A DNA stretch of 64,000 nt from assembly GCA_951217055.1 (NCBI GenBank), contig OX578276.1, positions 113,553,313 to 113,617,312 of the forward strand, given 5' to 3'. This DNA is from Gerris lacustris. Taxonomy: Eukaryota; Arthropoda; Insecta; Hemiptera; Gerridae. The notes below the pieces were generated by a model. The model made no database searches and was not told the origin of the DNA. It saw only the letters and a list, made by a program, of their open reading frames with translations. Position 1 is the stretch's first letter. Each line of letters starts with the position of its first letter. The position numbers and the translations under genes were made by a program. Below, piece after piece: positions 7,230 through 52,108 of this stretch.

Positions 7230-7570
7230 TAAATCAAATTATAATTATTATTAACTACGGGAAACAGACAGTGAAAAATACACTCCTGTGCCGGGATTTG
7301 AACCACGGGCCTCTATATTTCCAGTATAGCGCTCTTCCATCTAAGCTACGCAGGAGAATGATTTTTCACTACCGTAATCGATAACTAGTCCCGAATCCAA
7401 GCTTTCAATATTCATATACATTTAGACAGTCAAATTTTATGACATTAGAACTAAATCAAGAATTAACGCTTATAATTATATATATAGAGGCCCGTGGTTC
7501 AAATCCCGGCACAGGAGTGTATTTTTCACTGTCTGTTTCCCGTAGTTAATAATAATTATAATTTGATTTA
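7230..7570. repeat. Foldback element with perfect 88-bp arms carrying tRNA-like sequence
   Basis: Positions 7230-7317 and 7483-7570 are exact reverse complements over 88 bp. The arms carry the 3' half of a tRNA-like sequence. The left copy continues into the 5' half inside the loop. The outer part of the arm (gggaaacagacagtg and the AT-rich block beyond) is related to sequence near 22741-22845, which points to a dispersed family. Confidence 0.92.
7283..7355 (-). tRNA. tRNA-like sequence, degenerate (loop reads anticodon GGA)
   Basis: A 73-nt cloverleaf can be drawn. The acceptor TCCTGCG pairs 6 of 7 with CACAGGA. The D arm is GCTT..GAGC, the anticodon stem CTATA/TATAG is perfect around CTGGAAA, and the variable loop has five bases. 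The T loop is TTCAAAT, but its stem has two mismatches. A-box (TAGCTTAGATGG) and B-box (GGTTCAAATCC) sequences are good. GGA would be a serine anticodon, but the long variable arm of tRNA-Ser is absent. It is better read as a tRNA pseudogene or SINE head than a working gene. Confidence 0.5.
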
Positions 7571-15226: not shown

Positions 15227-15326
15227 TCAGAGGTCGTCGTCTGTTGGAATGTAGGTAGTCCCTGTTTCATCAAGGGAAAGCAGGGAATCGCTTGTTGGCA
15301 ATGTTGAGTAAGTAAGTTGAGCCATC
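15227..15326 (-). CDS. Exon 9: C-terminal tail and stop (residues 537-569)
   Basis: The acceptor is gcttttttatag. The exon encodes MAQLTYSTLPTSDSLLSLD, then a short acidic end (TDDDL) and TGA. Codon 537 (TC|G) is completed across the junction. Low complexity, regular codon use and phase agreement argue for a real terminal exon. The intron before it is about 400 bp and contains a dispersed repeat (15530-15720). Confidence 0.78.
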
Positions 15327-16562
15327 CTATAAAAAAGCAAAACATTTACTTTTAAAACGATTAAAAATAAAAAGTAAGGCAGACATGCTAAAGTTTAGAC
15401 CAAAGGTAAACACATCAAATAGAAGTTAAAAATATTGGTCCGATAAATCGAACTATAAACTTTCTCTGTATTACGAGTAAATCCCATTTAATTGATTTAT
15501 TTTTATACATATATTTAAAAAGTGTTTAACAGGTGGTTGTTTAACATTTGTATTGGGTTCTCAACAAAATCAGATTCATTTTGATCAATATCTCGGGAAA
15601 TAGATTTGTCCCGGGGAAAACTACATAATATGGTTAGATTCGTATTTAAATGGACTACATTTTGGAATTTTAATTAAAATCGTCGGAACCGTTTTCATAA
15701 ATAATTTTTTGAACAAAACGAAACCTACGATTTAGAGAAAGAAGAGGCTCCGACCATTCTCTTAGCTCGTTTATCCCGCGAGACATCTTTTCTTTTCCTT
15801 GCTTCAAACATCTTCTGAAGATTCAAATTATTTCTCCATAAGTTGGTAACGTTAGTAGCTTCACTAGGCTTGTGTGGAGTTTTAGAAGTGTCAGCGTAAG
15901 TGCTTCCGTCGTTTCTTAAAAGTCTGCTACTATTCCGCAGACGTTCTTCCAGCAGGAGTGGCTCCAATTCATTTGGAGTTTGATCTTTCGACCGACCCAA
16001 GTAATGTTCATTTCCTTGAGGAGACATCGAACGAGTTGTGTTGTAGTCTTCTGTTTGGTAATGCGGCAATGTTTCAGTGTAAAAATCAATAGACGTGGAT
16101 GGCTGTTCTATTGAAATAGGAACATTGTCACGATGCTTCTGGCATAGGCTTGATATATTTCGACTAACACTAAAATCATGATACCCAGTAGATGATGAAA
16201 AATTACGTCTTTCAGATAAATATATACTATTGATACTTATATCGCTAATAGCATGCTTAAAGTCACATTCATCTACTTCCGTTTGCTTCACTTCATCTTT
16301 ATTATCATGAGGTTCTTTAGGTTTCGAGGTATTTATGTCTAGAGATGTATAGCTGCTTTCATTTTTGTACATACAGTTGTAAATAGTGCTTAAGAAAACA
16401 CTTAGCAATGCCATTGAACCAAGCACTGCTGCTGGAAGCCACTGTTTTAAAATTTAAGGAAATTACTAGTTAAATTCTCACTAAAAATAAATTTATTTTT
16501 TTCCTATTTTTTAGGAAATGCTTATATTTCAGAGAAATATAAGCATATTTGTCTGAGAAGCG

Positions 16563-16640
<78 letters not shown>

Positions 16641-19600
16641 CTATTCGATCTATGGAATCTATTTATTATTAAAGTTGATACCACCTAATTATTAATTTAA
16701 GTTTTTAATTGGATACTAGATTTTAAGTTTATTATCTTTCTATACTCTGTATTATAAATATTGTAAGTTCAGACTTTACTGCTAAAGGTTTTCAGCGTAC
16801 GCCTTGAAAGCAAAACTTTTTATTATCCACAAAAACTGGTAATTTACATACGAATCGGATATATCACCAATACACTGAAAGTTTTATGCATATATATTAT
16901 TATAATTTCAATTATGAATCAGAATAATGCGCAAAAAACATATAATGTTCTTTATGGTCAATGATTTCTTTAGTGTAATGATTTTAAAACTTAAAAGTCT
17001 GTCCGAAACACTCGGACATACTTTTCTCTTATAATATGTTTAAGTGTCATATTTAAAACGTTTCTAATCATTATAAAATGGCGGAAAACAAGAATAATAC
17101 AAAATATTAGGTAAAATCCGTAAATAAAAACAAATAAATAAAATCAACTAATTTACTATGATACAAATTTATAGCCATTAATATACTGCTTTAAAAGGAT
17201 ACGGTAAATGGTAATAGACAAATCACGGATTCTCTAAAGCTAGGTGTAACATCGCGAATAGTATAAACCACTTCTTCGATGGTTTCTTCAAATGAAGTTG
17301 TTGGCCCGAATCGAGACACCGTGCACAAATGAATCTTGAGAGCTGTAGGGCGAATATGATTGGTTGTAGAAGACCAGCCTTCGTTGCAAATGCATCTTCC
17401 AGTGAAAATACTCTTATTACCGTTGTGACATACTATAAAGTCAAACTCCTGAAATAATTATTAAACTTAAATGTATCTATTTAGTGGTGAAAAAAAATTG
17501 TAGGGGTTGTTTGCTAAGGTAATCCAGTTTGAATATATTGAATACAATATTGAACTTGTTTCTTTAAATTGTTTAAATTCTAAAAAAACACATATTTTCC
17601 TTTAACCTGGTAAGTGTTCTACAACACCGTAAAAAAAAAACAATAAAATAAGTTCTGTCCCAATTTTAGTGTTAATACATTTTAGAAGCTGGTATATTAT
17701 ACATATTTATTTGTTTATAAATTTTTGTATTCAAGCAATATCAACACTATATTTTTATTATTTATTTGTTGATAGAACTTTAATTGTAACTGTTCATTTT
17801 AAAGGAACTTTTTATTCCTATCTAGCATCCAGTATAAGGATAATCTGATATTTTAATTGTCTGTTTTAATTAATTTAATTTTCAACTATCCCCTCATTAG
17901 TAAATTAATTTAATTTTAATTACCCTCTAATTAGTAAATTAATTTAATTTTAATTACCCTCTAATTAGTAAATTAATTTAACTATAACATGGGTATGTTT
18001 TAGATCTGGGGTACGGAAGAATTTTCTTTCACACAAAACACGATATGAAAAATGTGATGCTCTTAAATATCGTGCCAGGAAATTAGAATATGATAGGAGG
18101 TAGACTGGTTTTCACTTTTATTCATGAAGTACCACATTTCGCAGATAGAAGTTCTAAATTTTATATAAAATGATATCAGAGCTCCTAGCAGACCAAATGG
18201 TAATTAAAATGGAATAATGTTTCATTTTTAACTCCTTAAAAATTAGCCCCCCATATGTATCAAATACCTTACCAACTATCAATAAGAAAATACACATTTC
18301 CTAACATACTCAATCACAAAAATAGAACTAAATTCTGCTTTAAAAAAAGCAACACGTCACCAGGACATGACACAATACATTATGACATGCTAAATCATCA
18401 AAATATTTACTTCTATATTTAATCAAATTTGGATATCTCAAAACATACCGGAATCATGGAAAATTTTAATAATTATCCCTATTAAAAAAACAAATAAACC
18501 CTCTCTTCAAGCTTCATCATACAGACCAATTTCTTTATCTTCATGTGTTTTAAAAACATTTGAAAAAATCATCAAAAATAGACTTGAATGGTGGTTGGAA
18601 TCACAAGACAAATTACCAAAATCTCAAAAAGGTTTTAGAAAAGGAAAATCAGTTTTAGAAAATCAATGTAAATTAGTAACAGATATCCAAACGGCTTTTA
18701 CCACAAAAAAACAGTCTTTGCTGTATTAATTGATATTGTAGGAGCTTACGACAATGTAGATTTAAATATATTACACAAAAAAATTGCTTAAACATCCCTA
18801 CCTCTCTGGCAAATTTAATGATAAAATTGATATCACATCGAACATTACATTTACGATTAAATGGAGAAATAATCAATACAAGAATTGCACAAAAAGGAAT
18901 ACCTCAGGGATCAATTTTGAGTCCATTAGAATATATTATCTATACTTTCGATTTAGCAAATATTATTTTACCTAATACATCTATTCTCCAATTTGCTGAC
19001 GATGTAATTCTCTATAACACAGGAAAATCTCTTAACAGATTAACAAATAAAATATCTAAATCCTTAAAATTAGTTCAAAAATTTACAAAAGGTAATGGTT
19101 TGGAAATATCTGAAGATAAATCCGAATGCTGTGTCTTTTCAAGAAAAATAAATATAGAATTACACAACGAAATTAATTTTCAAAATTTAACATTAAAAAG
19201 AAAATCTGTAGTAAGATTTCTCGGACTCTATATAGATCAGAAACTATCATGGAAGCAACACATAATGATTACAGTACAAAAATGTGAAAATTATTTAAAT
19301 ATTATGTAATACATTTGCAACTTATCATGGGGATCTTACCCAAAAACAATGATCACCTTTTATAGAGCCACAATAAGAGCATGCATAGATTTTGGTGCAC
19401 CAATGTATGGTAATGCAAGAAACTATCTAATAAATATACTTGATAAAATACAATTTAAAGCAATTAGATTAAGTATGAGTTATTTGAAAACAACACCAAT
19501 TGACATTATTCTAGCCGAATCATGTTAACCACCATTAAATCTTAGAAGACAATACCTATAGCTGATTCTCTATTCTTAAAATAATTCTCCTTAGATTCAG

Positions 19601-22600
19601 AAATAATACCTCAAATAATCGAATTATCCAACAAATATAACTCAGGACATAACTTTTGGAGATCTAAAACAGCACCATTAATAACAACAAGTTATAACAA
19701 ACTTCATCCAAAATTAATTAACATTCATCAAAATAAAATTTTACCACTTTACCAAACCAATTTTTCGGCCCTTAATCAAACCATCAAAGTTTACCTCACA
19801 GATACTAAAGACTATTTAATTAACCCAGAATTAATCCTTACAGAAAAACTTGATTCAATACATCCCAAAGGAACATATTGCATATTCACAGATGGATCTA
19901 AAAAACCAAATAAAACTGGTTGCTCTTATTATGATCCATAATTATAAAATATGGAGAAGGGTACAATTGTCCAGATATCATGGGATATTTGGTGCTGAAT
20001 ATACAGGCATTTTAAAAGCAATCGAATATATTGATTCGCTAAATAACGACGATACAAATTACACCATTATCTGTGATAATCAAAGTAGTATTTTAAAATA
20101 GATGATATCTCTATATAAATCAAAGAAAATAGATCATGTAAGCATGCAAATTTTAAATAAACTATAAAATATATCACAACATAAAACAATCGATTTTATA
20201 TGGATATCTTACCAAGGCATTTCTGGAAATGAAATAGCCGACAAATTAGCTAAAGAACCTACAAAAATAGAACTTGACAAGAAAATTTTAAATACTGATA
20301 TAAAATCTTTTCTCAAATGCGACATGAAAAATAAATGGTATAATTACTATAAAGAAAATAATAAAGGTTCTAATCATAAAAAATACAACCCTAACATAAT
20401 TAAAACACCATGGTTTTGGAAATATAATATAAATCGATGTGATATCATTAAAATCAATAGAATGAGGAGTTTTCACTGTAGATGTATACAATATAACTAT
20501 ATGATTGGATTAAGCGATTCACCTATTTGTTTCAGCTGTCTAACAAAAGAAGAAAATATCCAGCACATTCTCACTGAATGTACCGGAAATATAGAAAAAA
20601 GAAAAAGCTTTATTCAGAATTTAACATAGAAGAATGCTTCCATAACAAAAAAAATTTTAGAAATATTATTTTAAAAAAAAATTAAAGATTTAAAGAAGAC
20701 TATAAAATTCACAGAAGACATTAATTATAAACCATAACCATATACTGCACCTAATAAGTAAAAATTTATAAATGCCAAATGTGAGGTTTCTATACCTCAC
20801 ATCTGGAAAGCCAACCTGATTTGAGTTTTCTGCGGTTTCCTCAATCAACAAAGCAAATGCTGAGTTGACTCCACAAAAGTCGGCCGCAGCCGCATTAGGA
20901 ACAAAATGACCTTGACAATTGTTACTACCCACGTTATCCAATTAAAATCATTATTTAAAATGGCTGCAGTTACCCTTACTATTGTTAACTTTTGCCAAAA
21001 AAAAACAACTTCTTAAGATCCATTTACTATATCAATTAGACAAATGTAAATACTGGTTGTCCCCCTTCACGGAAAATCATTGAAATGTCGATATAATCCA
21101 ATACAATGCCAAAACCTTGTATCCATGATTCAATGTTTTTACATAGTATAGAGAAAATAAGTATTTTTTAAACTAATTGCATTTAAATTGTGTGGTATGA
21201 GTATTCGGCAACTTCACAACGGAGCAAAGCCTTTTTGGTTAACTCATTTATTTTATGAATTATAGATTATGTTTTAAGGTAAAAAGTTATACAGGATTTT
21301 ATTAAAAGTTATAAAAGAAAATTGAATACGTTAGATGGATGTAAATCTTGATCAACACCTCGCCCAGAATTCAATGTTCTGATGTCGTCTTCGTTGATGA
21401 TCGGTTCCAAATTATCACACCTATTTCCCTCTGGCGCATAAACCTTCATGGAACCGATAAAGGAATTTGTAAATTAAATTTTTGTAATTCTTATGATATA
21501 CATATACCGAAAAATGAGAATGAATAACTCAATGTACGATATAATTGTATGATTCATGTAAAACAGTTTTATTAGAATTAAATTTAAAACATACATGAAT
21601 GTAAAAGAACTTAACTTAATTATTATAGGTTTATGAACTGCATTTATTTATGAAGTTAACATGGATTACTGAAAAAAAATATTGTATGTTATTGAATATT
21701 TATGAATTATTGTAGTGTTCTTCATATTATTTTAAAGAATCGGTCCAATAAATCGAATAAAAAGTTTTCATATATACCTAGATATCATATTTAAATTCCA
21801 AAATAACTCATTTACTTGATTGACTTTCAAAATTGTCGTAACCGTTTGCGAGTAGTAGTTTATTTCACGTTTGTTTTATTTATGGAGTTTTATGGGGTAA
21901 ATAGAAGGTAACAAAAATTCGTCAATTTCTACCTCAAGGTATGATATTTCTGAAACTGTATGCTAAATTTCATCAAATATCAGTCTGTAGCCTTTTTTTA
22001 TTAAAAAAAAAACCGACATTTTTTAAAATCCTCTTTTTTGGACTCTGGGGACCTCAAAACGTATAAATCCAAAATCAAATTTTCACCCCATCACAATACT
22101 TTCTTTATATAAATATATAGTATACTTCTAACGTAGAAAGTAAAGATCATACATGAAAAAATAAACTTTATAAATTACTTATTACTATTACTATTAACAT
22201 TTTAAGTTGTGTTAGATAACGTGATCATGTCGATTAGACTTTTCTAATTATCTAATCTAAAAATGTAACACATTTATATGACTTAAAAATAAAAGTATTA
22301 TATTTTATCTGACTCACTAGGTGGGGTAGGTCTGTTTTCTGGTTTTTTGATTTGGTCTCATTACATTTAGGTGCAGCAAGACATCTACGATCGGAGTTAC
22401 TATAGAAAAGCATCTGACCATTATATTTTCTACTGCAGTCCACTGGTCTGCATTTATCTAATGGATCCTCGTCAATGTAAGCGCATTTCCTCACCCTCGT
22501 AGTCTCAGAATCATAATATGCTGCAATTATTTCATAAGGGTAAAACTTGTATTTGAAGAGAGGAGGAATGGAAATTACATTTCAGAAATAGCGTTTCTAA

Positions 22601-25600
22601 AATGAATAAAGATTATTTTAAAATTTTGTCCAAAATAAAGACTATGTAGCAATTCAAATAAGAATTAGTGGAAAATGCCTGGCTCTTTATCACGTGGTAT
22701 TTTACAGGGTATTTTTAACCAACAATTTCTATTTAAATAACTTGGGACTGTCTGTCTGTTTCCCTTTGTTAATTATAATTTTATTTAAATTTAAATTTAA
22801 ACTTTCCGCAGTATGAATGCTACCTAAAAACTTAAAAATAACTTGGGACGTGAAGAAAGTCTTAGAATCGAACATACGTGCCTTCATCAATGTGATGTCA
22901 ACAAAATGTGTGCTTTAATACAGACTAGCTCCTCCACTTTAATTGCCCATAATTTGAGAACTTATATCAATATTGAACAAAACTTTAGAGTATTTGTTAA
23001 TGCAATAATGATAATTAGAAACTTAATCTTATTACTAAAATAAGACTTTCTCTCGGCTGGTTTGAATAGAAATTTGCTTTTGCTGAGTATAACCTGTTCA
23101 GGACTGCCTGAACTCTAGTCTTTATAGTATAGTCAAATAATAAATGTAAATAATTTAGTTATATTTAATGTAGTACTTATATTGCTACATTCTCAATACG
23201 AGATCTGCATCGCATCGCGCCCTAAAACCCAGGTTCATTCTTCCACTAATAGGAGCATAGTGACTGGAAGAGAGTTTAAGATTTTTTTTTTACTTACTTG
23301 GGTGTTAAACCAGCTTTTATTTTAGTTATTTCACTTTTTAACCTGACATTCAGCTAGTTTATTGGTTATATATCCAGAAAAATGTATGTAATATATATAA
23401 CTCTGCCTGGTCCTGGCATTCATCAGTGGAGTTATACTCAAGCTTTGGAATCTTCCAATATTCCAATCTTCTCCAATTGAGTGGTATATCAAATGTCTAT
23501 TTTATATATATAATGACAAATACAGTTCATTTGCTTATGGTTCTTTTCTTTATTTAATTAGATTTCATGGAGAACCGGGTCCTAGCATTTAAAGTCCTTC
23601 CTAATGAATACCTATATATTTTTACCATGACAGTATAGGTTTTAGGGAGATCTGATTTCAGCTTGGAAACATTAAATAAAAATTATATAGTCATAAAGGA
23701 GCAAACCTTGTCACGAGTGATAGAGATATTGCTCTAAATAGTCACTCGATTTCTTCTTCGAATTATTCACACACCATCCAACCAATAAACCATTATATAG
23801 TTTATGTCCTATGCAAATGATTTGCCAGGTAAAATTATACAAATATTTATGTTACAAACTACCAGTAGTTCCATAAACTGTTTTTTTTTAAAATAAAGCA
23901 AGCAGTAAATATATATTGCTTATTCAATACCCCCCCCCCCCCCCCCCGATGAGCAGAACCTTCCTAATGGCTAAGGTTGGCGCCTTATTCAAGAAGCCAA
24001 TCCGCCCCTGTCTAAACCTGGCCTGTATAAAAGTACTATTGAAAATTGCAGGGTTTTTTCAGTTTCAGTTCATTTACTACACTTAATAATGTAAATGTAT
24101 AATAACGAAGATGATGTAAATGTAATTACGAAGATGGTGTGCAACGCAGTTATTAAATCAACCGATATAATTGTGTCTTGTTTGAAACTATGTGCAATTT
24201 AATTTCTAATGCATATTAAGATAAGACCTATTATTATAATAATGTATGTAACACATTAGCTTTTTTATAATAATAATATATTATAAAATGCGAAACGATA
24301 CGATACTTGTAATAGATGGCGCGATGTGACGTGGTGTCAAGGTGGTATCAAAGCTAATTTTAGTTCTGAGTTCCTTTACTTTACCATCTGGATCTCTGAA
24401 CCAGATACCAACCAAGCATTCTCCTATCCTATTATATACGTACTGAAACAAACAGATGTTTTTAAAAATATGTATAAAGTAAAGAATGATAAGTCTTAAA
24501 CTAATTAAATTAAATTATTTTATATTAAACACATAATGCAAGTTTAAACACATAATTATATAAGGTTTCCTCCCAAATTTTGATCCCTATGTGTTTGATT
24601 CACTTATTCAATTCATTATATATTCTCCATACCATGTCACCTTGTTGTACCAAATATATTTGTTACATCACCAACATCAATTTTTTTACAAAATCTTCCG
24701 ACGAGCAAATAAATAAACAAAGGTCATCAAATTGAATTTGGCGACCACAGGACGATGCGCCTGGGTAGAGCTGTCTGCTCTAGCAATAGTTCCTTGCTTC
24801 CATCGAGTCTCCTCATAGTAGGAACATAAGATAAGAGACGCGAGAGCGAGAGAACGAACTCTCCCCCCATTTTAACCCCCTCCCCTTCTTTTACTCTCTC
24901 CTTCCTAATAATATCTTTATTGCATTGCAATACACGTCCTCCGCCTCTGTCACAATTACTATGAAAAGCTTTTTATTGTCTGACCCATTTGATTGCGGAT
25001 GACAGGGTGTTTTATGTTGCGCATACTGCGATACTTGGCAGGATCAGTCTGAAAATACTTCCAGTGAATTGGTTCCATTATCCGCAACCAAAGTTTGAGG
25101 GATTCCAAACGTTGTAATTATTTTCCAGGCCTTTTGACAGCCTATGCCAACAAAGTCGACTTCTCTTTAGAGGCTTTTTGGCCCGAGTCAAAGGGGACGG
25201 GAGGATCATTGAGTCATGGCAATGAGATGCTCGCCTCGAAGGGCGAGAGTGTGGATGCGACTACTTCGCCTCGGGTATTCTCGTCGAGTATAATCGGCGA
25301 GGATACTCCACCAGAGTGTGGAGGGGCCTTTAGAGTTATTCAGTCAAATTCTAATGAGAGTCTTCCAGACTGAGATCGAGAGAGACCATATATCGTAGAG
25401 AATAAAGACTGTTGCTTAATACTTTACTTTTATTTATCTAAAATGAACTTATGTACCTAAATCCATTCAGACGCACTTATATCTTTTATTCAAGAGATCA
25501 AGAACGCCTCATCGTTTATTTCTTTATTACGTGTAATTAAAGTAGCCCAATTGAAAAATAGTTTTTTGAAGATCTGATTATCTAGCTGCAATAGCAAAAT

Positions 25601-31600: not shown

Positions 31601-31951
31601 ACTGATAGATACCTATACTAGATTTATGTAATTGGTTATTTTATTTTATTTTGTATATATCAACAGAAATATGTTTTAAAAATAATACTATTAGGAGTAA
31701 AGACTGTTTCTTGTAAAACTAGTTTAAAAATTCAATTATTCTCATAAATTATAAAGTTGATAGATACAATTAAGCAAGTATAAAATTAAAACCAATTTAT
31801 TATTATTTAAGCAAAAATGATAATTTTTACAGAATATCCTAGCCATGTCGAAATGTTTCTTGTTCTTTACTATAATTATTTAACTAAAGCTTTTTTCTCG
31901 AGAATATTATTATAACAGTTTTGAAAATATCGTAATTTTATTCGTAAAAAG

Positions 31952-32042
<91 letters not shown>

Positions 32043-35000: not shown

Positions 35001-37702
35001 ACCGCTCACTATTTTCCTAGAAGAACTCTTGAAGACTAAAATCTCACAAAAACTTCCTCATCTAATACTCTTTCGAACGGTATAAATAACATAGTGATTC
35101 CGTATCGATTTCATGGAGAAATTAAAGTTTGAATGCAAAAAAACGTCATCTACAAAACTTTTAGCAGGTACGGTATGTACCAAAATGCTTGGATGGAACG
35201 AGAAAAATCCACAGCAATTTTTTCAAATGAAAATTTATTTCATAAATCATTTCAATAGAAAACCACTTTTGGATACGAACAATTAGATTGACATTTAGAT
35301 CATAAATTCTAAAAAAAAAACACTCTCGGATACGAAAAGTTAAGATCAAAGATTATGTTTTAAATTGAGTGCTCAAAGTGGTTTTCTCCGAAAAAATAAT
35401 TATCCATATGCTTTAAAATTTTATTAAATTGTCTAAATAAAGAAACTTGTTTCATTTACATACAATTTTCCGTTTAGAAGTTACAAGGGTTTAACCTCGA
35501 GGGTCTAGAATTATTTTATAGACAGTAATAATTGGAATTTCATTGGGTTTTTTTATAATTGTTCCTTAACTTTTTCCGGTTTCAACGATATTTGTTATAG
35601 CGTGAAGAAGCCCCAACGTGGGAGGGTGAAATATAGCCAGTATAAAAGAAAAAGTTTAGTATTTTTATATTGAAACTTGTTATTTATATAGGCCTACAAA
35701 CAGAAAATACTTTATCAAAATTATATATAAAGGGTTCAAATCACACATTACAGAACAAAAACCTAAAGTTTCACTCCAAACTGTCAAAGTTTCAAAATTA
35801 AAAAATTAAAAACTTCAAAATGGTGGCCAATGCCAAACTGAAATTTTGAGGGCTTGTTTGTCATACAGAGAGGTACATTCGTGCGCCAAATTCAACTCGA
35901 TCAGGACCATTTTCGATTTATTACGATTTTTTTTAAATGTTTGCTGACTCAGCAAACTAAGTTCAAGATGGCAGAAAAAGTTGATTTTCCGGGCGGCACC
36001 ACTACAGGTTAGGACTGATTTTTCTGTCAAGTTTCAACTCTCTAGAATAAATACCTTGGGCGCTACGATGATAACACACATACATACACACATACATGCA
36101 TACAGACGTCATGCTGAAAACCACTCAGGAGGTCTTAAAAACACCTAAAACGGATAATTCCGTTGAAATCTCGTTGAATCCATTCTAAAACGGATAATTC
36201 GTTGAAATTTTTTTGGTGAAAACAATACTTTTCCTACTATAGGTATAGGTAGTGAGGAAAAGTAAAAAGGACAAACTTTTAAAATTATACAACAAAATTA
36301 AAAAGAACTTGAAATAATAAAAATAAAAAAATACTGGGAAACCAATTAGGAAAATTCAGAAAAAGTTATGTGCCTAGATATAGAAAAATAATAGAGCAAG
36401 GAATTCAGGAAAGGAACAAGGAACGAAATGATGGTATGCCGTCCTCAGAACTATGTTCTTTAAAATGGTGGGTCCTTCATGTTATAACTGAGTAATGATC
36501 TATAAGAATAAGCTAAGCTATGTACTAAAGTAAAACAGGAAAAATAAAGAAATTCGTTCATTTCTGAAGTGATCATAAAATCTTATCAATAAACTTCTTA
36601 TTCTGTAAAAATTGTAGGTATGTATTTTATAATGTTATATGAACGTATTATCAGCGATGCTGATTGAGTGGGTTTACAAATTATTAGTAAATATTATCCT
36701 AACCTCGATTAAATAAACTTTAAATCCTTCATCAGACAATTTTTTGTAATCCCTTACACGTATCTTTTAGTGACAATTATACGTAACACTATTTTATTTT
36801 ATTTTGTGGCGTGTTAAAATTCGATTTTATACGTCAAGCCTTATTTAAAAATTACCTCAAGTAATAAATAAAATCAAATAATGATGCTGATAAAGACTCA
36901 CCAGATTAGGGTAAAAGAGTGTAACATTGCTTGCATGCCCTGCACAGATAATTCCTTTATAACCTCCCAACAAGTGAATGTGCTGAAACATATCAGGAAA
37001 AAACATTATCAGTCAGTAGCATTCTTTTTGCAATACTTATAGATTATCGTAATTAAACTATAAAAAAAGAAGATTTTAATACACATAATTCAATATGTTT
37101 CGGAACGGCAGGATCAAGTTTTACAAAAAAATGTTTAAAATATAATTGTAAGGGTTTAAAAACTCTATTTGGTAGTAACAACAACAACTTGCCTTTGAAA
37201 TGTCCCCGAAAAGCTCAGTGAAGGCCAACATTAAAATCTTAAATGAGAACCCCCATTTGTTCATGTCAAGAATCGTATTAGTGGAAGTGGAGGTCAAAAA
37301 CTTGTCATACAAATAAGGAAGATAAATTATTGTCAAAAAGTTACAGGCTTTAAAGTTCAAATATTACCGGAATCAGCAGCACCCAAGGATGAGGGAAATG
37401 GTCCAATAACACCACTAGTTTCACAGTTTTGTGCTAAATTCAATTTTTTTAAATCTATGCTATCTGATTTTAAACATTTATTAGCCAACTCTTATGGATA
37501 GCATTTTATGAATAATTTAGTTATTGTATCAATTGCAAGGTTGGAGTGTAAACCTATTCATATTTTTTTTATTTTGGAACTTGTGGTGCCTTTGGACAAT
37601 TTTACCCCTCCTTGAGAAACACAAATTCCAGTGAATTTCAAGCTTGAAAAGCCGAACAACTCGGGACATGGCACAGAATTAACGGGACAATTTATTTTAT
37701 AT

Positions 37703-37734
<32 letters not shown>

Positions 37735-40700
37735 TGATTGATTCTGACAAACAAAGTGGGATGTTAACATTTAATATTACAAAGTTCTCCTTACTATTTA
37801 ATAGATTTTTTGAAACAATTTTACTTTTAATTAAACAATTTGTAATACAAATTAACCCTAGTGAGATAATTGACCGTTTCGGAACATTTTGGACTCCCTG
37901 CATGTATAATCCAAATGCCAGATTGATTAAGACAAATCACGTTTTATCTGGAACCATTGTGCCCATGAAATTCAGTTGGCATGATCCACTTTTTAAAACA
38001 TAAAAATCATACTAGTATTTCCTTAGTTTTGGGAACATATTTTAGGCAAAAAAGTATTTCTTTATTCACAAAAGCATTTCCGGAACGGAGTTCCGGCTCT
38101 GGTACACCCCTGATAGATGAATAGAATAACTAATAAATAATAAAAACTCTAGATTAGTTTAGATATATAGTTAACAAAAAGCCTATGGTTTCTTGATTAG
38201 TCAAAATTATAAAATATGTCAAATAAATGTACTAAAAAATAAACTTATTCGTCCGTCAGATGTAAAAAATATCAATTGTAGAGGAAGACGTCCGGGATAT
38301 TAACTAACAAGAGAGTTTAAATAGATAAATGCCTGATTCCTGGCCTAGTGTAACAAATGGTTACTATATGTGCTTCCACTAAGGTTAGCATAAAAAGAGG
38401 AGAAAAGTAATCAAACATACTTTTAACGTAATTAGGTATTTACTTCTCTCTTCAACTTCCAAAAAGTAAAATTTTACTTTCTAGAACAAATACTGCTTAT
38501 ATCGAAATAGTCCGGCACGGCAGGGTAGACGATTTTTAAGTATTTTGATTTTTTCATCCATTTTGACAATAATTAAGGACTCATTATCACAAACGCTAAA
38601 ATAATTACAAAATATTCGGCTTTAATAATCCAACAACTAACTTTTAAACAAATAAATCTTACCGAGCAATCTACCTCTCCTTCGTCAAAGGTTTCACAGC
38701 ATTCCCACATTCTTGTAGCCACGTCCAAATTAACTGGTAAATTGTTCACTAAATGAATATCTGCAACAGTTAATATTTAAAGCTATAATCAACATCTAGT
38801 TTAACTATATACGAATTTATAGCTATGTTTTATATACGTTTTTTGGCAAAATATCTGCTAAAACCTTCAAAATGCTAATATAAATCTGTTTCAATAATTA
38901 AACTAAGATAAATATTTAATACAGACTGCGGTTTCTAAAATATCTTTAGCTTAAAAAAAATATAGCCATGTATATTTACAACTTAAATTCAAACAATAAC
39001 TAAAATGTTAATCAACAGTGAATGTAATAAAATTAGAATTCACTGGATTAATCAAAAGTAAGCATAATTGCACCCATTATACCTCTCTATAAGATAAAAT
39101 TTATAACAAAATATCTGCCATCGTTGTGTTATTATTTGGTAAGAAATGTTCCGAGACGTGTTCCATTTTTAGGGTTTCGAGGTCATCCTAGAAGCCCTTC
39201 TGCGTTTGGTAGTTCGTCCGTCCGTCCGTCGCATCTTAGAGTATATCTCCTGACCTACTGTAGCTAGAGATTTGAAATTTGGTATACAAGTTAAACTTTT
39301 TTTCCCCAAAACAGAAAAACTATTTCGGACTTGAACACTCAAAATTTCTACGATCAGCGATCAATTGCGATTTGATCGCGAAATTCATTATTTTTTTGTA
39401 ATTATTATGTTGGGATTCATTTTAAAGGTATTAAAATTTGGCTTACAAATATATATCGCATTTTTAAAATAGCGACCATTTTAGCCCTGCAAAAAATTAA
39501 AACAAACCGCTAAAAAAAATATCAGCGCTACCCCATTAGGAAAGGTCCTAAAATAAGGCAAACATACAAAAATATACATCTCTGTGGTCCAATGATTTTC
39601 CGGGAGTTGATATAAAAAAGTCAAATTTTAGGGGGTCGTAACTATGGAGCCCCAAAATTTTTAATTTTCGAAAATTTGAAGTTGGGTATCATTTTAAAGG
39701 TATTGAAATTAGGTTCACAAAGATATACCACGTTTTAAAAATGGCGGCCATTTCACCCCTAAAAGAACCAAATAAGTGTATATCTAAGACACTAAAGGAT
39801 AATATATGCACACCTTGCTTCTTAAAATTGCAACTTTTTATACATACTTCAGTTAAAAAAAAAATGTTCTATTAATGAAGTTTTATGACCGAAGAAACCC
39901 TTTTGGTAACTTGCTGGCAAGTACTTGACGGGATTTTTGAAAATCTCATATGAAAATCTTGATAAGAATATTTATTGTTGTTTCTTATATTTTTTTATTT
40001 ATCGTTTCTTTATACCTACATGATAATTGGAAGCCTAGCCACTGAATCCAAGAATGAGCCCCATGTGCAGCGTTGAGTGAAGTATACTATATAATATATA
40101 GATATAAGAATAAGAGCCAAATACCATTCACTAACTCATTCATCGTATGTATCCCTAATCTGACCAATAACCACTTGTATGGTAAAAAACACCCCGCCAA
40201 GTCTGTGGTCCAAAAAAGTTGTGAAATCAACTTTCTGTCCCGCTAAGTGATGTTGGCACTTTCTCCTGACCCAACACTGTCAACTTAGATACCTACTTAT
40301 CAGGTTCTTCTCCTTGGCGGTGTGCCTGCAGTACTACCCAAAGTTAACTGGTTGTATTCCACGCATCCTCTGTAATGAAAGTAGTAGTTGTATGGGGTCA
40401 TTCCTTGAAAGCTTAATTTGTTTATTACTTATTTCTATTTTATTTGCTTTTTGATAATGGGAAAGATTTACAGCAATAATCATTGTGGCATCGAGAAGAG
40501 CCTTCAACACCACTGTTAAAAGTCTTTCCTCTCCAATATGCGCCTGCATATTTTAGAACTAGTTGTCTAGAACTAAGACTATGAGGTGAACAACTATCTT
40601 TCCACACAAACCTCATGTGGCAAACGTGAAGGTGAAACAAGAAATTGTATTGGTGTTTGAAGAATATTAAAATTCCAGTATCAGGAAATGGCAAGGCACA

Positions 40701-43700
40701 CCGCCAAGGAGAAGAAGCTGATAAGTATCTAAGTTGACAGTGTTGAGTCAGGAGAAAGTGCCAACATCACTTGGCGGGACAGAAAGTTGATTTCACAACT
40801 TTTTTGGACCACAGACTTGGCGGGGTGTTTTTTTACCACACAAGTGGTTTTTGGTCAGATATATGCCTGTCAGCTATAAGGCCGCGGGCTGGACCGGCCG
40901 AGATCGGCTGGTTATATGTAAAATATATATATAAAAAAAACCCCATCCGTGAAAAAAGGACCAAGTTCCAGAGCCTCTCCCAAATTAGTAAGCCTATATC
41001 AAAGTAGCGATATATACTTTTTGGCCAAGTCGGTTTTTTTTTTAGTATATAACCTCGATTAATTCCTACTTTAATGAGCAAGTCTGATTTCTTTTTATTG
41101 CTTAACATTATTAAGGGCTACATATTTTACAGTTTCCTAAGCTACTTAGGCCTAATCTATGTTTCAAAATTCAAGAGCTCATCGAAAGGGATCGTAGAGA
41201 TATGAGGGTGAGAAAAACCGGGTGAATTGGTTCAAGTATAAAGATACACACTGCATGCTTACTGCAACTTGGCCTTGCGCACTGCTCAGATTTCCTCTTA
41301 AGGGATTTGTATGTTAGAAGCACTAAATCGTCTTGAAATATCCAGTTATTTTTTTCATATTCCAAATGTCATTTATTGTGTACAAGTTGATTACTTGACA
41401 CTTTTAACAACTTGTTTGGTCGTGTTTATTGGTATAACTTTTCCATGGGTTTCTATTCCCTGCTATAATAATTTTCTCTTTTATGTACGTATCTTTTTTG
41501 AGTTTAATTCCTCTTTCAGCAATTAAGTTTTACTACTTTAAGATTTTAATAAAAATGTTAGTGAATGTGTGAGCTGACAAGTCATTATAGTATTGAAGCA
41601 TGTAGGTACAATAAAAAAAACTTTCTTTTATTTGTGTTCATTTTATAATCTGATGGTAGCAAAATTGTTTAATGGAATTCTATGGATGCTTAACTTACAC
41701 TACCACTACATGAAAATCTTAAATCGTTAGGTGACATGCATTGCAAATTTTATATCGTGTAAGACATAGAAAGTTATAGAAACAACCTTTCTTAAAGTTG
41801 GCAATTATTTAATTGCCACCAATCAAATTCATATAAATTTTTTTGTTTGGATTTTTTGTGATTTTTTTTTTTTTTATAAAAATACTATTTTAGGAATAAA
41901 GAAAAGAACAGACATGATAATATAAAGAAAAAGAGAGTTCACGTTTGTTGAATTTAAGTTTATTGTATGAGATATAATATGGTGTATACGTTTCGGTCTA
42001 GCTCCATTAGGTTCAAAATTATACCTCACGTCTGACAGCTAGAGTAAATATAAAGCAAGGATACAAAATTTTATGAAATCAATAACGCAATGAATAATTA
42101 TAATAAACGTGACTTGTTATTATTTTTCAAAAATACACCATTTATAATACTTATATGTTGGTTTATTGAAGTAAGAAACTTTACTTAATATAAAATTAAT
42201 TCATAACGGTTTATTTGATTTTATATTAAATGAAGTTGTTTTAATAATGTAACTAACTCTTAAGTCATAAAAGTTGTTGCGCAAAATATATAGTCTTGTT
42301 TTTTTTGTGCAAGTAATATTAAAAAGTTAAATCTACTGAATCTCTATAGGATGTTTGTAGGACTTTTAAAGAAACTAATTACATTTTATAATCGGAAAAA
42401 CCCTGGAGGGGGTATGTTTGTATGGACTCAATCATCGGGCACTTCTTTAGACTGTTATTGCCCTTATAAAAAAGTAGGAAGTAACAATCTAAAGAAGGAG
42501 TACGGAATGCTCTTCTTTAGACTGTTACTCCCCTTATAAAAGCAGAAGTATGGTATTCCTTTGTCCCAAAGTACCTACATTGGACTAAAAATCCCTTCGT
42601 CTATTTAGAAAAATGTCACCCAATTGTTATAACAATGGTATAGGAGATTATTATATGCATCTTATGTACGAAATTATTGTAATTGTTTTAATATAATTTT
42701 TACTTTTCCTCACCTAAAGGTAATATAAGAAAAGTATTGTTTTCACCCAAAAAATCCAAAACTGAGATTTTATCGGAATTATACGTTTTTGGTGTTTTAA
42801 AGACGATTTGATGATTTTTAGCTGCATGTCTGTATGGGTCTCTCACAGTTTTCATGCTAGAGAGTTAAAAATTAGTACAAAAATCTGTCCTTACATGTAG
42901 TTGTGTTGCCCGGACAATCATAAATTTGAGACGTCATTAACCTAATTTAAAACATTCGTAAAAAATCGAATTTTTTTCTGATTGCGCTGAAATTTGTATC
43001 AACTATACCTCTTTATAAGACAGACATTCCCTCAGAATTTTGTTTTGTTATCTGTCGCCATTTTGAAACTATCAACTTTTGAACTTTAAAACTTTGACGC
43101 TAAATAATTTCCGAACTATTTTGCCAACAGAGCTGAAATTTGCACCAATGATACCTTTCTACAAGATAAATATGTCCTTCATATTTTATCTTAATATCTG
43201 CTGCCATTTTAAAAACAAAAAAAAAAAAATTATATAGGAAAGTTTGTTTACATTTTTAAATATCTCACTATAACGGACCTCAATATACCGGACGACATTT
43301 AACGGATCAACAAAATTATAATTCACGTAATAAAAGAATATGTTGTCATTTATAGGTTTATGTTTGGTGAGAACGTTTCGAGACGCCCCGCGACCGATTT
43401 TTTTTTTAATTTAAATGTATTTAGTTTTTTTTTTCAGTTCCAACTTCAATTATAATTTTTTTTAAAAATTTACTTCTTATTCTGTGGCTTGTCTTATGGG
43501 ACTGCTGCCACCTAATATTACTCTTGAGTGGAAACAGGCTATATATACATACACACACACATATTATTATTAATAATTTATATGGCTTAATTTACATAAA
43601 TTTTAATTACTATTAAATCGTATCCCTTCTAAATGTTGTAATGTAGGACCTTTTTTAATATATAATAGCTATCTTTCTTGCGAAGAAGCAAACTTTTTTA

Positions 43701-45862
43701 AATTTTCAATAGCTAATATTTAGAGTAGAAATCAATGTGTAAACTTTTTTCTAACACACATCATAACATTGTATGTAGCTGGATAAAAAATTAACATTTT
43801 TTATAACCACATGACCTCTAAAGCCATATTTAGTTAAGCGCATGCGCTCTTCCAGGTCTTCATCAATGGCGTGTTAGGACACGGATTCCCAGTTAATTCG
43901 AGAAATTTTCCCTTTGCTAAACCTGTTAGATTATTATCGCCTATCAAACTTTCTAATCCTTTCTGGACCACTCCATATCATGGGATTGGAAAGGTGATTT
44001 GTGTTTACTATAAGGATTCGAGGACATGTCTTTTATCATCCAAGTAAAATTGATTACACATCATACCTTCGAGTTTCTCCTCTTCACAGGTCATAGTTTG
44101 CTCCGGTCATTCTAAACGTACCCGCACTCCCAAAAATTCAAGACTAAGAACCGATTGGCTCGACAGAACGGAGAACACTGGACGAATGGTCGAAGGCTTC
44201 CAAAGGCGAGACGGACAAACCGACGATGGTGCCTCGAACACGCACACTTGTTGCATGATACTAGACAATCATAGGTGGGCGACACACGCACGACAGGGGT
44301 ATCACACAAACCTTCCCCCGGATTATCCATGTCGCACCTTCTTGATTGCTAGTCTTATATTATTGATGGAAAAAAGTCTCCCCTTATCGGTTAAAATGGA
44401 CTTGCTGTTAAACAGATTCATGTTTATAAAATTAAGAAAAAGAGAATTATTGGTACTCACAGAATGTAATTCCCATGGTGTCTGGCGTCAAAGCAAAGAT
44501 ACCTGTGTTCTGAAAAAATAAGAAAAAAAAGACATTAGAGAGAGAAAAAGGAGAATAATTTAATGGCGCAATTTTCTCGGAGGTGATCCGGACCGTACAG
44601 GGGTCGGTGTCGCCTCCGGGGGCCCTATTTCCCTGTCAATCTCGAGACGTCAACTTACCCTGTGGTTTGAACCTTTAGGACTCGCCTTGACGAGCCGTCA
44701 CAGCCACCCTCAGGCCACCCTCACTAATAATCAGTCGGAAACCGGCCCTCTCAGATAATACCGCCCGACAAAGTCCAGCCCAACCCAATGAAAAGCGCGC
44801 ATTCAGAAAAAATATCTCTCTTAATAAGCGGTTATTGGTTGTTGGATAAATGTTAAAACTATTAATTTATCATCGATTGGCTGTCTGAATAAAAAGTTCA
44901 ACGGCATTATATTTAAAAATCATAATATATAAGTTCTTTTACGTATTACTAATGTGTCAGAAGCTACTGATATTAAGAATTATGCCTTTCAGATCTGGTT
45001 TGGTATTTATTTCAACAAGAAATTGCAACAATTTGAAAATGAATTAATGACATCCTGATATTTTCGAATACTTTTTAAATTTCTTTAACTGCGCATAACA
45101 GTAAAATATTCTGTACAAAACATTACTTACATTCAAATTTACAATGATAATAATTCGAACATCATTGTAAAATTGTATACAGTCATAGAATACTAAGTAG
45201 AAGTAGTAAATTTAATAATTACAATCATTAATTAAATTTGAGAATCAATAAATGAAAGATAAGATTATTTTGTTAAAATAATATAAGTGTTATTTTAATT
45301 AAGCTTCAATTAAATTTATTATATTTATTTTCTCATGTGCTTAGAGATAGCTAAAGAATTATGTAAAAAAAGTTTTTATATTATAATAAAAGGAAATATT
45401 TATCGTATAATTTGGTTTAATTTTTATTACCTTTCAAAATTATTACTTTTAACTTATCACGTAACGTAACGGAAAAATAAAATATTTTAAGAATTTGTTC
45501 TGGAAAGAAATGTTGTTAATATACAGTGAATGAAAAAAAGGAGAACTCGCAAGTTAATGATCTAATGTGGTTGTCAATCGAAAATTCTTATATAATAAAT
45601 TAAATCTTTAAATAAAAAAAATTCTCTATAACCACTAATTTCATCACCAATTTGGTTATTATTTTTTGTGACAAAGGTCAGACCAATTTAGCACTTTAAC
45701 TTCGATCGCTTTTCACTACCAAGCGTACAATATTTTTTTAAAAAAAAATATTACCACGATAGTGAGTGTTTGAGCTTCAGGTAAATCTTCGGGCGGAGTT
45801 AGTTTCTCAGTGGCTGAGGACCTCATGAGCAGTAGGAGGCCTAAAGCAGGAATAAGGAACAT
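15227..45862 (-). CDS. Nine-exon gene for a predicted type I membrane protein (569 aa), family not recognised
   Basis: The coding exons, in transcript order, are 45862-45755, 44509-44461, 38760-38663, 36982-36902, 24442-24307, 22520-22318, 17448-17227, 16441-15729 and 15326-15227. They sum to 1710 bp, which is 570 codons with the stop. Each intron reads GT..AG, and the junction phases are 0,1,0,0,1,0,0,2, consistent throughout. The predicted product has a signal peptide (residues 1-17) and an ectodomain to about residue 299 with 14 cysteines, two of them in a CxCNEGW motif of the EGF type. Sequons are at Asn104, Asn211 and Asn236. A single transmembrane helix (about 300-320) is followed by a Ser/Thr-rich cytoplasmic tail. 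The tail holds YTSL (330-333), the acidic dileucine ELEPLL (457-462), a polybasic stretch (about 514-527) and an acidic C-terminus ending DDDL. From these I infer a surface receptor or sorting receptor. The 12.5-kb fourth intron could hide a further phase-0 exon. Confidence 0.85.
15530..15720 (+). repeat. Dispersed repeat B, partial copy in intron 8
   Basis: Shares tagattcgtatttaaatgg and aaaatcgtcggaaccgtttt with the copy at 55.3-55.7 kb, and looser similarity with 21.7-22.1 kb. Confidence 0.75.
15729..16441 (-). CDS. Exon 8: transmembrane helix and cytoplasmic tail (residues 300-536 plus 2 nt)
   Basis: The acceptor aattttaaaacag is followed at once by WLPAAVLGSMALLSVFLSTI, the only transmembrane segment. 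The rest is a hydrophilic Ser/Thr/Asn-rich tail. It holds YTSL, ELEPLL and a polybasic segment (ARKRKDVSRDKRAKR). The frame runs to a stop at 15725-15727. A GTAGGT donor lies just before that stop (TC|GTAGGT, phase 2) and joins exon 9 in frame. Use of the in-exon stop instead would give a 537-residue form, an obvious alternative transcript end. Confidence 0.88.
16563..16639. repeat. (TA)n microsatellite in intron 7
   Basis: About 38 uninterrupted TA units, adjoining exon 8 by roughly 120 bp. Confidence 0.97.
17227..17448 (-). CDS. Exon 7: membrane-proximal ectodomain with EGF-like motif (residues 226-299)
   Basis: The acceptor is taattatttcag. The peptide begins EFDFIVCHNGNKS (sequon at Asn236), followed by GRCICNEGW, the most recognisable motif in the protein and typical of EGF-like folds. 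It ends with the acidic stretch SFEETIEEVVY and then DVTPSFRES. The donor chosen is TCC|GTGATT. A second phase-0 donor at ACC|GTATCC (exon end 17203) would add eight residues, so the last residues before the membrane are uncertain. Confidence 0.8.
17871..17985. repeat. Tandem repeat, about 34-bp unit, three copies
   Basis: Units taatttaattttaattaccc...ttagtaaat recur three times with a few changes in the first copy. Confidence 0.88.
18240..20690 (+). pseudogene. 5'-truncated non-LTR retrotransposon with RT and RNase H
   Basis: The RT fingers read SNTSPGHDTIHYDML, then ASSYRPISLSSCVLKTFEKI. The palm follows with VLIDIVGAYDNVDLN, then GIPQGSILSPLEY and FADDVILYNTG (about 18894-19020). A later frame gives CIFTDGSKKPN, an RNase H start (about 19880), and ISGNEIADKLAKEP, the RNase H end. 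The C-terminus keeps CFSCLTKEENIQHILTEC, the zinc motif of I/R1/LOA-like elements. Frameshifts and stops split it into at least six pieces. The endonuclease and first ORF are missing. It lies in intron 6 of the host gene, on the opposite strand. Confidence 0.9.
20691..21690. other. Intron 6 sequence without recognised feature
   Basis: A short inverted repeat (tgtgaggtttctatacctcaca, about 20779-20800) and ordinary AT-rich sequence. A less AT-rich stretch near 20810-20940 has no frame that joins the gene. Confidence 0.45.
21700..22140 (+). repeat. Dispersed repeat B, copy in intron 6
   Basis: Block order matches 55.3-55.7 kb: atcggtccaataaatcg, then tcgtaaccgtttgcgag, then gctaaatttcatcaaatatc, then ggggacctcaaaacgt, then cacaatactttctttatata. 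Confidence 0.8.
22318..22520 (-). CDS. Exon 6: cysteine-rich ectodomain (residues 158-225)
   Basis: The acceptor is ataattgcag and the donor is CTA|GTGAGT. This exon carries five cysteines (170, 181, 186, 204, 210) in about 40 residues and the sequon NET at Asn211. Motifs include KCAYIDED and CRPVDCSRKYNG. The reading frame stays open into the intron, so the GTGAGT donor sets the end. Confidence 0.85.
22741..22845 (-). repeat. Relative of the tRNA foldback arm (repeat G)
   Basis: Reverse-complement of this stretch aligns with 7170-7272: shared aaacagacagt, the AT block and a ctttccg..gtatgaa..gctacc..aaaacttaaaa order. Confidence 0.65.
23930..23947. repeat. Poly(C) tract
   Basis: An uninterrupted run of about 17 C, like the one at 681-702. 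Such runs are prone to sequencing and assembly error. Confidence 0.95.
24307..24442 (-). CDS. Exon 5: ectodomain (residues 113-157 plus 1 nt)
   Basis: The acceptor is gtttgtttcag and the donor is A|GTATCG. The encoded peptide starts YVYNRIGECLVGIWF and includes Cys121 and a charged stretch, DPDGKVKELR. It joins exon 4 in phase 0 and exon 6 in phase 1 (ACA A|CA TAT). The donor is weaker than most others in this gene. Confidence 0.8.
24965..25150 (-). pseudogene. LTR retrotransposon integrase fragment
   Basis: The minus strand reads VDFVGIGCQKAWKIITTFGI, then PQTLVADNGTN. This is the gypsy-type integrase core with the second catalytic Asp in ADNGTN. After frameshifts, a PCHPQSNG-like segment follows. 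It lies in intron 4, on the same strand as the gag remnant at 28.9-29.2 kb. Confidence 0.75.
25151..25420 (+). other. GC-richer block with a 92-codon frame, unrecognised
   Basis: The plus frame ends ECGGAFRVIQSNSNESLPD, followed by TGA, then gaataaagactg about 40 bp on. This could be the end of a retroelement ORF plus LTR-like polyadenylation signal, but no domain is visible, and the first third of the frame is antisense to the integrase fragment. Confidence 0.3.
25421..28930. other. Intron 4 sequence without recognised feature
   Basis: Mostly AT-rich. A less AT-rich stretch (26190-26420) has short frames on both strands without family resemblance. No splice-bounded frame of phase 0 joins exons 4 and 5. 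A short hairpin (tgcatagttaccaactatgca) lies near 28300. Confidence 0.45.
28941..29215 (-). pseudogene. Ty3/gypsy Gag remnant
   Basis: The minus translation AVSSILGASSDALDSLASIT, then DKIMEIETPS, matches the conserved end of insect gypsy Gag (aiLAassdaLDsLA.iaDKImE). It is followed by a Ser/Arg-rich tail. It ends at a stop near 28941. The acceptor-like tattttag before GAGCC is coincidental, since the required phase would not fit the host gene. Confidence 0.7.
30048..30096. repeat. Hairpin, 24-bp arms
   Basis: The arms match at 23 of 24 positions around a single base (arm starts aaattttctcatatattctt). Confidence 0.88.
30370..30530. other. CpG-rich island in intron 4
   Basis: Contains agcagcgaagccgcaagcc, gcggctaccttccgggggg and gagcgaagcgagtagggg. 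The composition is sharply different from flanking DNA. Origin unknown; probably a decayed mobile element or foreign fragment. Confidence 0.45.
31954..32038. repeat. (TA)n microsatellite in intron 4
   Basis: About 42 uninterrupted TA units followed by aagagagaggg. Confidence 0.97.
33395..33470 (+). mobile_element. Single hAT-like terminus
   Basis: The stretch caggggcggactggcccgcc resembles the hAT terminus at 50886 (cagtgtcggactggg), with a GC-rich subterminal part. No partner terminus was found, so the element's extent is unknown. Confidence 0.4.
35755..36262 (+). repeat. Dispersed repeat D, plus-strand copy
   Basis: Shares gtgaaaacaatacttttcct, gaggaaaagta, and aactctctag followed by the acctaaaacgg..aattccg order with the minus copy at 42705-43215. 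Confidence 0.75.
36902..36982 (-). CDS. Exon 4: ectodomain (residues 86-112)
   Basis: This exon is 81 bp, exactly 27 codons, with acceptor atatgtttcag and donor CTG|GTGAGT. It encodes HIHLLGGYKGIICAGHASNV, then TLFYPNL. It contains Cys98 and the N-glycosylation sequon at Asn104. Both junctions are phase 0. The following intron is the longest, about 12.5 kb, and is full of transposon remnants. Confidence 0.85.
37709..37734. repeat. Poly(A) tract
   Basis: About 26 uninterrupted A. It could mark the 3' end of an old retroposed sequence, but the preceding sequence shows no recognisable source. Confidence 0.8.
38088..38115. repeat. Hairpin and possible hAT-like terminus
   Basis: The palindrome ccggaacggagttccgg is followed by ctctggtacacccctg, which would read CAGGGGTGTACCAGAG from the other side, like a hAT end. 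No partner was found. Confidence 0.35.
38663..38760 (-). CDS. Exon 3: ectodomain (residues 53-85)
   Basis: The acceptor is taactgttgcag and the donor is TCG|GTAAGA, close to consensus. The exon carries the first three cysteines, in the motif WECC (Cys73, Cys74) and at Cys84. It begins with IHLVNNLPV; the next exon also begins with an IHL motif, which hints at a short internal repeat. The end phase is 0. Confidence 0.87.
39160..39960 (+). repeat. Dispersed repeat C, plus-strand copy with internal duplication
   Basis: Two related units (about 39415-39490 and 39665-39765) share cattttaaaggtatt and attttaaaaatggcggccatt-like blocks. The whole is the reverse complement of 49.0-49.4 kb, including ccgaagaaacccttttggta and cttgctggcaagtactt. 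Confidence 0.8.
40158..40860. mobile_element. 703-bp foldback element in intron 2
   Basis: The terminal arms 40158-40326 and 40693-40860 are complementary over about 168 bp with few mismatches. Both carry the caccccgccaagtctgtggtcc and cttctccttggcggtgtgcc motifs. No target duplication is clear. The 360-bp centre has no domain. Confidence 0.88.
42430..42605. repeat. Repeat E, copy 1 (foldback motif cluster)
   Basis: The motif cttctttaga(c/t)tgtta occurs at 42442 and 42512, and inverted at 42483-42498. The flank (ttcctttgtcccaaagtac) recurs inverted at 47.3 kb. Confidence 0.8.
42705..43215 (-). repeat. Dispersed repeat D, minus-strand copy
   Basis: Reverse complement of the family at 35755-36262. 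It also contains two degenerate copies of a block ending in tgccattttgaaa / tgccattttaaaa. Part of the same block occurs at 39061-39120. Confidence 0.75.
44100..44340. other. GC-richer block beside exon 2, downstream side
   Basis: Contains cgacagaacggagaacactgg and neighbouring CpGs. Overlapping frames of 72 and 111 codons lie on opposite strands. Neither shows a known domain and neither joins the gene in phase. Confidence 0.35.
44461..44509 (-). CDS. Exon 2: 49-bp short exon (residues 37-52 plus 1 nt)
   Basis: The acceptor is ttattttttcag and the donor is GTGAGT. The exon encodes NTGIFALTPDTMGITF and ends in phase 1. Both neighbouring junctions fit: phase 0 from exon 1, and T|AT to exon 3 giving Tyr53. 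It is embedded in unusually GC-rich DNA. A 111-residue open frame on the other strand covers it and looks like chance. Confidence 0.82.
44570..44790. other. GC-rich block beside exon 2, upstream side
   Basis: One of the most GC-rich 200-bp stretches in the window (gatccggaccgtacaggggt, gcctccgggggcccta). No open frame is maintained. It lies in intron 1 about 60 bp before the exon 2 acceptor. Confidence 0.4.
45755..45862 (-). CDS. Exon 1: start codon and signal peptide (residues 1-36)
   Basis: The exon encodes MFLIPALGLLLLMRSSA, a hydrophobic signal peptide with a plausible cleavage after SSA, then an acidic, proline-containing start of the ectodomain. An in-frame TAA lies 12 nt before the ATG (45872-45874), so translation should begin here. 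The donor is GTG|GTAATA, phase 0. A second ATG at 45882 in another frame opens a 13-codon upstream frame that overlaps this start. A pyrimidine-rich acceptor (ttttttag) just upstream, near 45900, suggests that the 5' leader is itself spliced. The leader exon was not found. Confidence 0.85.

Positions 45863-52104: not shown

Positions 52105-52108
<4 letters not shown>

Follow-up and report, generated by a model that had tools for sequence, protein, structure and literature searches.

Type I receptors that are internalized through dileucine-type motifs are composed of a signal peptide, a cysteine-rich ectodomain, a single transmembrane helix and a long cytoplasmic tail carrying ExxxLL. The sequence rule for this endocytic signal is [DE]xxxL[LI]. 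EGF-like proteins (hEGF, PF12661; EGF_2, PF07974) display a CxCxxGW motif with cysteines on either side, which can be located close to the membrane, and the cysteine loops of a normal EGF domain are shorter than 20-21 residues. Insect membrane proteins of such architecture that are encoded by single-copy genes mostly have orthologues that are annotated, though often uncharacterized.

The locus described here encodes a predicted protein with features of both systems. It has the four parts of a type I dileucine receptor in common with the former, and with the latter a membrane-proximal CxCxxGW motif flanked by cysteines. It differs from the dileucine receptors in that no ligand-binding or signaling domain is recognized in it, and from an EGF domain in its longer loops between the second and third (21 residues) and the fifth and sixth cysteines (20 residues).

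This work concerns a stretch of 64,000 nucleotides (C1:113553313-113617312, hereafter the window) from an insect genome of 937 Mb in 69 contigs. Our best explanation, to which we assign a probability of roughly 0.7, is that its minus strand carries a real insect gene, split into about nine exons, whose product is a type I membrane protein. This product may be a cell-surface binding or adhesion receptor with dileucine-type uptake.

Materials and methods

Exons were sought by reading frame, splice sites and phase, starting from the outer coordinates, the only ones given by an earlier, sequence-only reading of the window. Splice sites were scored on a simple home-made scale. For exon 2, six lengths between exons 1 and 3 were enumerated with the other exons fixed and exon 4 always included.

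Codon usage was assessed twice, with exon 8 as training set in one test and 28 kinase stretches from the same genome in the other. These stretches were what remained of 30 loci after L016 (same score as L015) and L030 (containing a stop) had been left out. A chaining script using generic splice and amino-acid frequencies was run on positions 15000-46100, a region set by the earlier finding.

The protein search, in a database of unspecified arthropod content, needs several shared exact 5-residue words. One of its queries was a 471-residue partial model that lacked exons 1, 2 and 4.

Results

A nine-exon chain and its competing versions

A gene is very likely present on the minus strand between 15227 and 45862, and the nine-exon model is probably right in outline. 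In the version we prefer, the features are as follows.

Exon 1: 45755..45862, minus strand; ATG, signal peptide MFLIPALGLLLLMRSSA / TEKL..., ends in phase 0, donor GTAATA
Exon 2, tentative: 44461..44509, minus strand; 49 nt, phase 0 to 1, donor GTGAGT (2.1)
Alternative exon 2, less likely: 44246..44348, minus strand; gives 569 residues, adds four Cys, purine-rich
Exon 3: 38663..38760, minus strand; phase 1 to 0, donor GTAAGA (3.8)
Exon 4, tentatively held by its splice sites: 36902..36982, minus strand; phase 0 to 0, acceptor 2.6, donor GTGAGT (4.6)
Exon 5: 24385..24442, minus strand; 58 nt, phase 0 to 1
Exon 6: 22318..22520, minus strand; rich in cysteines (five), phase 1 to 0, donor GTGAGT (2.9)
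Exon 7: 17227..17448, minus strand; EGF-like stretch with CxCxxGW, and stalk; phase 0 to 0
Exon 8: 15729..16441, minus strand; 237 codons for the transmembrane helix and the greater part of the cytoplasmic tail, closing in phase 2 at GTAGGT
Exon 9: 15227..15326, minus strand; last 32 residues and stop, acceptor 2.7, acidic tail end TDDDL

The sequence-only reading had proposed nine phase-consistent minus-strand exons encoding 569 residues, and such a chain could be rebuilt (1710 nt, ATG at 45862, stop codon ending at 15227, exon phases 0,1,0,0,1,0,0,2). It makes use of 44348-44246 as exon 2 and 17448-17203 as exon 7, with the remaining exons as listed. The in-frame stop that had been reported upstream of the ATG is present as well, and an upstream out-of-frame ATG opens a short frame overlapping the ATG of the gene. 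That each exon has a usable acceptor and donor was not confirmed for this chain, in which the acceptor at 44348 scores -0.1 and the donor at 17203 scores -1.2. In the version listed above, internal acceptors score 1.4-3.9 and donors 1.7-4.6 on the same home-made scale, save the exon-7 donor at 17227 (0.4).

Three AG/GT-bounded solutions for exon 2 (44348-44246, 44632-44461 and 44348-44177) each give 569 residues in combination with one end of exon 7, so that the exons originally meant are not fixed by length. We lean toward a 543-residue variant with exon 2 at 44509-44461 and exon 7 ending at 17227, some scores favoring other choices. The splice sites favor this exon 2, which is preceded by a long pyrimidine tract and has the strongest acceptor among the accepted exons (3.9), with an unremarkable codon score (P 0.11-0.15; full score P 0.111). 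The codon scores favor 44348-44246 (full score P 0.025; donor 1.4). Three in-frame donors, none of them strong, are available to exon 7 at 17320 (1.4), 17227 (0.4) and 17203 (-1.2). The ends at 17320 and 17227 keep the phase, and the eight extra codons that the 569-residue version gains between 17226 and 17203 score as non-coding (P 0.83-0.91). Exons 2 and 7 have doubtful borders in every version.

Open frames compared with chance

At 242 codons from stop to stop, the frame of exon 8 exceeds every other closed open frame in the window, whereas the longest open frame in 150 simulated Markov-1 windows of 64 kb had a mean of 126 and a maximum of 178 codons. When each exon was simulated 20000 times from its own dinucleotides, exon 8 was never open, and exons 6 and 7 were open in 0.35% and 1.9% of cases, respectively, uncorrected for the choice of frame. 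Exons 1-5 and 9 were open in 8-56% of such simulations and are therefore individually weak. As 2624 frame-specific candidate exons pass loose cutoffs on both strands, phase consistency alone is not beyond chance, and nine exons chaining in phase in AT-rich DNA are weak evidence by themselves. What does exceed chance is the length of exon 8, the openness of exons 6 and 7 and the chain score described below; the strong evidence sits in exons 6-8.

This distribution of the evidence bears on a rather unlikely alternative, in which the gene is real and only its 3' part (exons 6-9, perhaps also 5) is right, exons 1-4 being chance frames and the true 5' exons lying elsewhere, inside or upstream of the window. 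The shortness of exons 1-4, each easily open by chance, and the several competing solutions for exon 2, none of which is best on every measure, speak for it. Exon 1 points the other way, with its good signal peptide, its raised G+C content and a codon score unmatched among the exons scored, as do the in-phase chaining and good donors of exons 3 and 4.

Base composition and codon usage

The measured exons, both exon-2 candidates excepted, have a G+C content of 0.38-0.48 against 0.16-0.35 in their flanks. Values for individual exons are 0.48 for exon 1 (flanks 0.35/0.27), 0.40 for exon 3 (0.23/0.30), 0.41 for exon 4 (0.30/0.25), 0.40 for exon 5 (0.25/0.28) and 0.47 for exon 9 (0.28/0.32).

The codon test is low in power, since leave-one-out codon bias in the kinase set is weak (0.06 +/- 0.08 bits per codon, synonymous part). 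The score of exon 1 is equalled by 0.6-1.9% of random open segments and that of exon 9 is likewise low in P (full score 0.023). Exons 2-7 (P 0.06-0.53), among which exon 4 is average, score no better than many open segments; exon 8 stands outside this test.

Within the 50 kb read upstream, a gene for a Ctr copper transporter was recognized on the same strand (about C1:113620634-113637872), with some 21 kb between its near end and exon 1, and served as comparison. Its last exon matches Pfam Ctr at E 1.1e-16, and two of its exon pieces, when joined, do so at E 1.5e-9. Its N-terminal exon is His/Met-rich. The G+C content of its three measured exons (0.37-0.48 against flanks of 0.16-0.35) is like that of the membrane-protein exons, and their codon scores (P 0.00-0.20) are little better. 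As the Ctr exons score similarly weakly, weak codon scores count little against the membrane-protein gene.

Exon-chaining score

The minus strand reached chain scores of 109.6/79.0/62.7 at penalties 9/12/15, exceeding all 400 local-composition shuffles (200 for each of two block sizes; maxima 77.9/61.0/52.1) and all 200 order-4 Markov sequences (maxima 41.0/24.8/19.8). The plus strand, which contains a reverse transcriptase, scored 68.4/55.3/46.3. When exon 8 was disabled by stops, the minus-strand score dropped to 79.1/49.5/34.6, which is just over every shuffle at one penalty and within the shuffle range at two. The other exons thus give only modest support, and this result also favors the alternative in which only the 3' part is right.

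At penalties 6 and 9 the script selected exons 1, 2 (in the 49-nt form), 3, 4 and 6 with both preferred borders, as well as the acceptor of exon 8, together with twelve and ten exons, respectively, outside the accepted model; the selection of exons 1-4 argues against that same alternative. Three and two of exons 1, 2, 3, 4 and 6 were retained at penalties 12 and 15. Exon 3 was picked at three of the four penalties and exons 4 and 6 at all four. For exon 5, a 44-nt variant was used at one penalty and the exon was omitted at three, and exons 7 and 9 were picked at none. Exon 8 was entered at its acceptor and then read through, unspliced, to the stop at 15725.

Predicted protein

The order of parts that had been described earlier was borne out, with a signal peptide at the ATG, a cysteine-rich stretch, one helix and a tail. 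The signal peptide, with a cleavage site judged by eye, has a hydropathy of 1.33 over residues 1-19. In the 543-residue model the ectodomain comprises 14 cysteines and is followed by a transmembrane helix at about residues 274-297. The hydropathy maximum (1.94 over 19 residues) starts at residue 275, and the other listed peaks start at residues 1 (1.33) and 39 (1.16). An N-terminal signal peptide with one transmembrane helix after the ectodomain is the layout of a type I single-pass protein. All exons share one strand and follow each other as expected for such a protein, which also argues that exons 1-4 belong to the gene.

The ectodomain contains three N-glycosylation motifs, at residues 104, 185 and 210. 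The six cysteines of the EGF-like stretch, CxC included, are at 178, 184, 206, 218, 220 and 241. EGF profiles scored far under their curated cutoffs on this stretch (hEGF 9.0-12.3 bits against 29.3; EGF_2 9.8 bits against 22.1; E 0.24-2.8). In the cytoplasmic tail, exon 8 encodes the dileucine-type motif NELEPLL, which fits [DE]xxxL[LI].

Searches for relatives and further copies

Searches of Pfam-A with exon 8, with pieces of the ectodomain and with the complete 543-residue model returned sub-threshold rows only, and NCBIfam gave no match for the first 300 residues. The best sub-threshold Pfam rows, DUF4682 for the tail (PF15733; 13.9-15.6 bits against a cutoff of 27) and the cytolethal distending toxin A/C domain for the ectodomain (PF03498; 10.9-12.8 bits against 22), are both at chance level. 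PDB-sequence matches of ectodomain pieces to ribosomal eL13 and factor IX were likewise attributed to chance. The protein database yielded no match at E 10 or better for the 471-residue partial model, its residues 16-162 or exon 8 alone.

Neither the viral nor the prokaryotic genome contigs gave a match to the ectodomain. Exon 8 matched viral contig L001 at 36% over 61 residues, in a low-complexity frame of 647 codons that resembles a phage tail protein. This match was rejected as chance, because it starts at the common word NDGSTYAD, itself a scan pattern. A Bacteroidales contig with 45% identity over exon-8 query residues 148-189, a range that includes the same word, was also taken as chance. 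These empty searches say little about arthropods, as the libraries hold described domains, the contigs are viral or prokaryotic and the protein search is word-based, and they do not establish the undescribed receptor or sorting protein that the earlier reading had thought possible.

Within the genome, the sole match listed for exon 8 was its own locus (E 8e-156), and the seven rows listed for the 273-residue ectodomain corresponded to exons 1-7 of the locus itself (E 0.28 for exon 2 and 1e-5 for exon 5). No paralogue was present among the best-scored genome candidates for these two queries, exon 9 having been left out. The earlier proposal, a split gene within DNA strewn with transposons that codes for a single-pass membrane protein of type I, is thus supported, with no second copy scored in the genome.

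One of the contigs, contig 69, carries mitochondrial genes, and its COX1 contains 12 TGA codons, which the invertebrate mitochondrial code translates as Trp. The encoded protein appears to resemble COX1 of auchenorrhynchan hemipterans (hoppers and their relatives). A chromosomal COX1 copy (G000:C1:5210962-5212302) equals C69:3452-4792 in score and in its count of 12 TGA codons and is either a recent insertion into the nuclear genome or an artifact of assembly.

Repeats and other features of the window

Apart from the exons, the window contains the following features.

18394-19306, plus strand: broken reverse transcriptase in the intron between exons 6 and 7 (RVT_1 E 1.7e-9 and 2.6e-14, in two frames), judged to be of non-LTR type
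19585-19938 and 20168-20626: open frames without a Pfam match
2231-4215, plus strand: fragments of two element types, one with a reverse-transcriptase zinc-binding tail (zf-RVT E 0.0019, under cutoff), the other with RNase H (E 1e-7) and, after it, an integrase-core piece (E 7e-7, under cutoff)
40158-40327 / 40860-40694: inverted repeat of 171 bases, 94% identical, the arms separated by about 370 bp; resembles a small inverted-repeat element
7282-7356, minus strand: tRNA-Ser; no other tRNA gene was detected in the window
7228-7318 / 7572-7482: perfect inverted duplication of 91 bases, taking in part of tRNA-Ser
52105-53827 and 56234-56579: two tandem arrays, the first with a period of about 290 bases and the second of about 62

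When the exons and short flanks were compared by blastn with about 228 kb of other loci from this genome and with the window itself, no repeat match was found inside any exon, and the single 30-bp match joined a position elsewhere in the window to a site just outside exon 8. That the locus is decayed or never coded, with transposon fragments and chance frames chaining by accident, is very improbable. Transposon debris such as the reverse transcriptase at 18394-19306 does occur in the region, and AT-rich sequence lets many exons chain, yet the long open frame of exon 8, the lack of any scored second genome copy of that exon or of the ectodomain exons and the absence of repeat matches inside the exons in those 228 kb all speak against such an origin.

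Discussion

The locus is most likely an ordinary gene for a type I membrane protein. It would be a real insect gene of about nine exons, extending over 30.6 kb of the minus strand with transposon debris in its long introns, and its transcript is expected to encode a single-pass protein of about 540-570 residues. After cleavage of the signal peptide, the ectodomain would comprise about 255 residues, with its 14 cysteines forming disulfides. It would include a degenerate EGF-like stretch next to the membrane and would be followed by a single helix and a tail some 245 residues long.

At the cell surface, such a protein may act as a binding or adhesion receptor, and clathrin adaptors could take it in via the dileucine-type motif ELEPLL. 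Architecture and short sequence motifs tentatively suggest this role, in which adaptors would drive the uptake of a receptor or adhesion protein from the surface.

Given that annotated orthologues are usual for insect proteins of this kind, we rate the gene as an ordinary one without an assigned family. That it encodes an orphan surface receptor restricted to hoppers or hemipterans, with a cysteine layout outside the described families, is unlikely. If expressed, the gene would add one more surface protein to the annotation of a non-model insect, and it would carry greater weight only if its ectodomain were to represent a family without relatives outside hemipterans.
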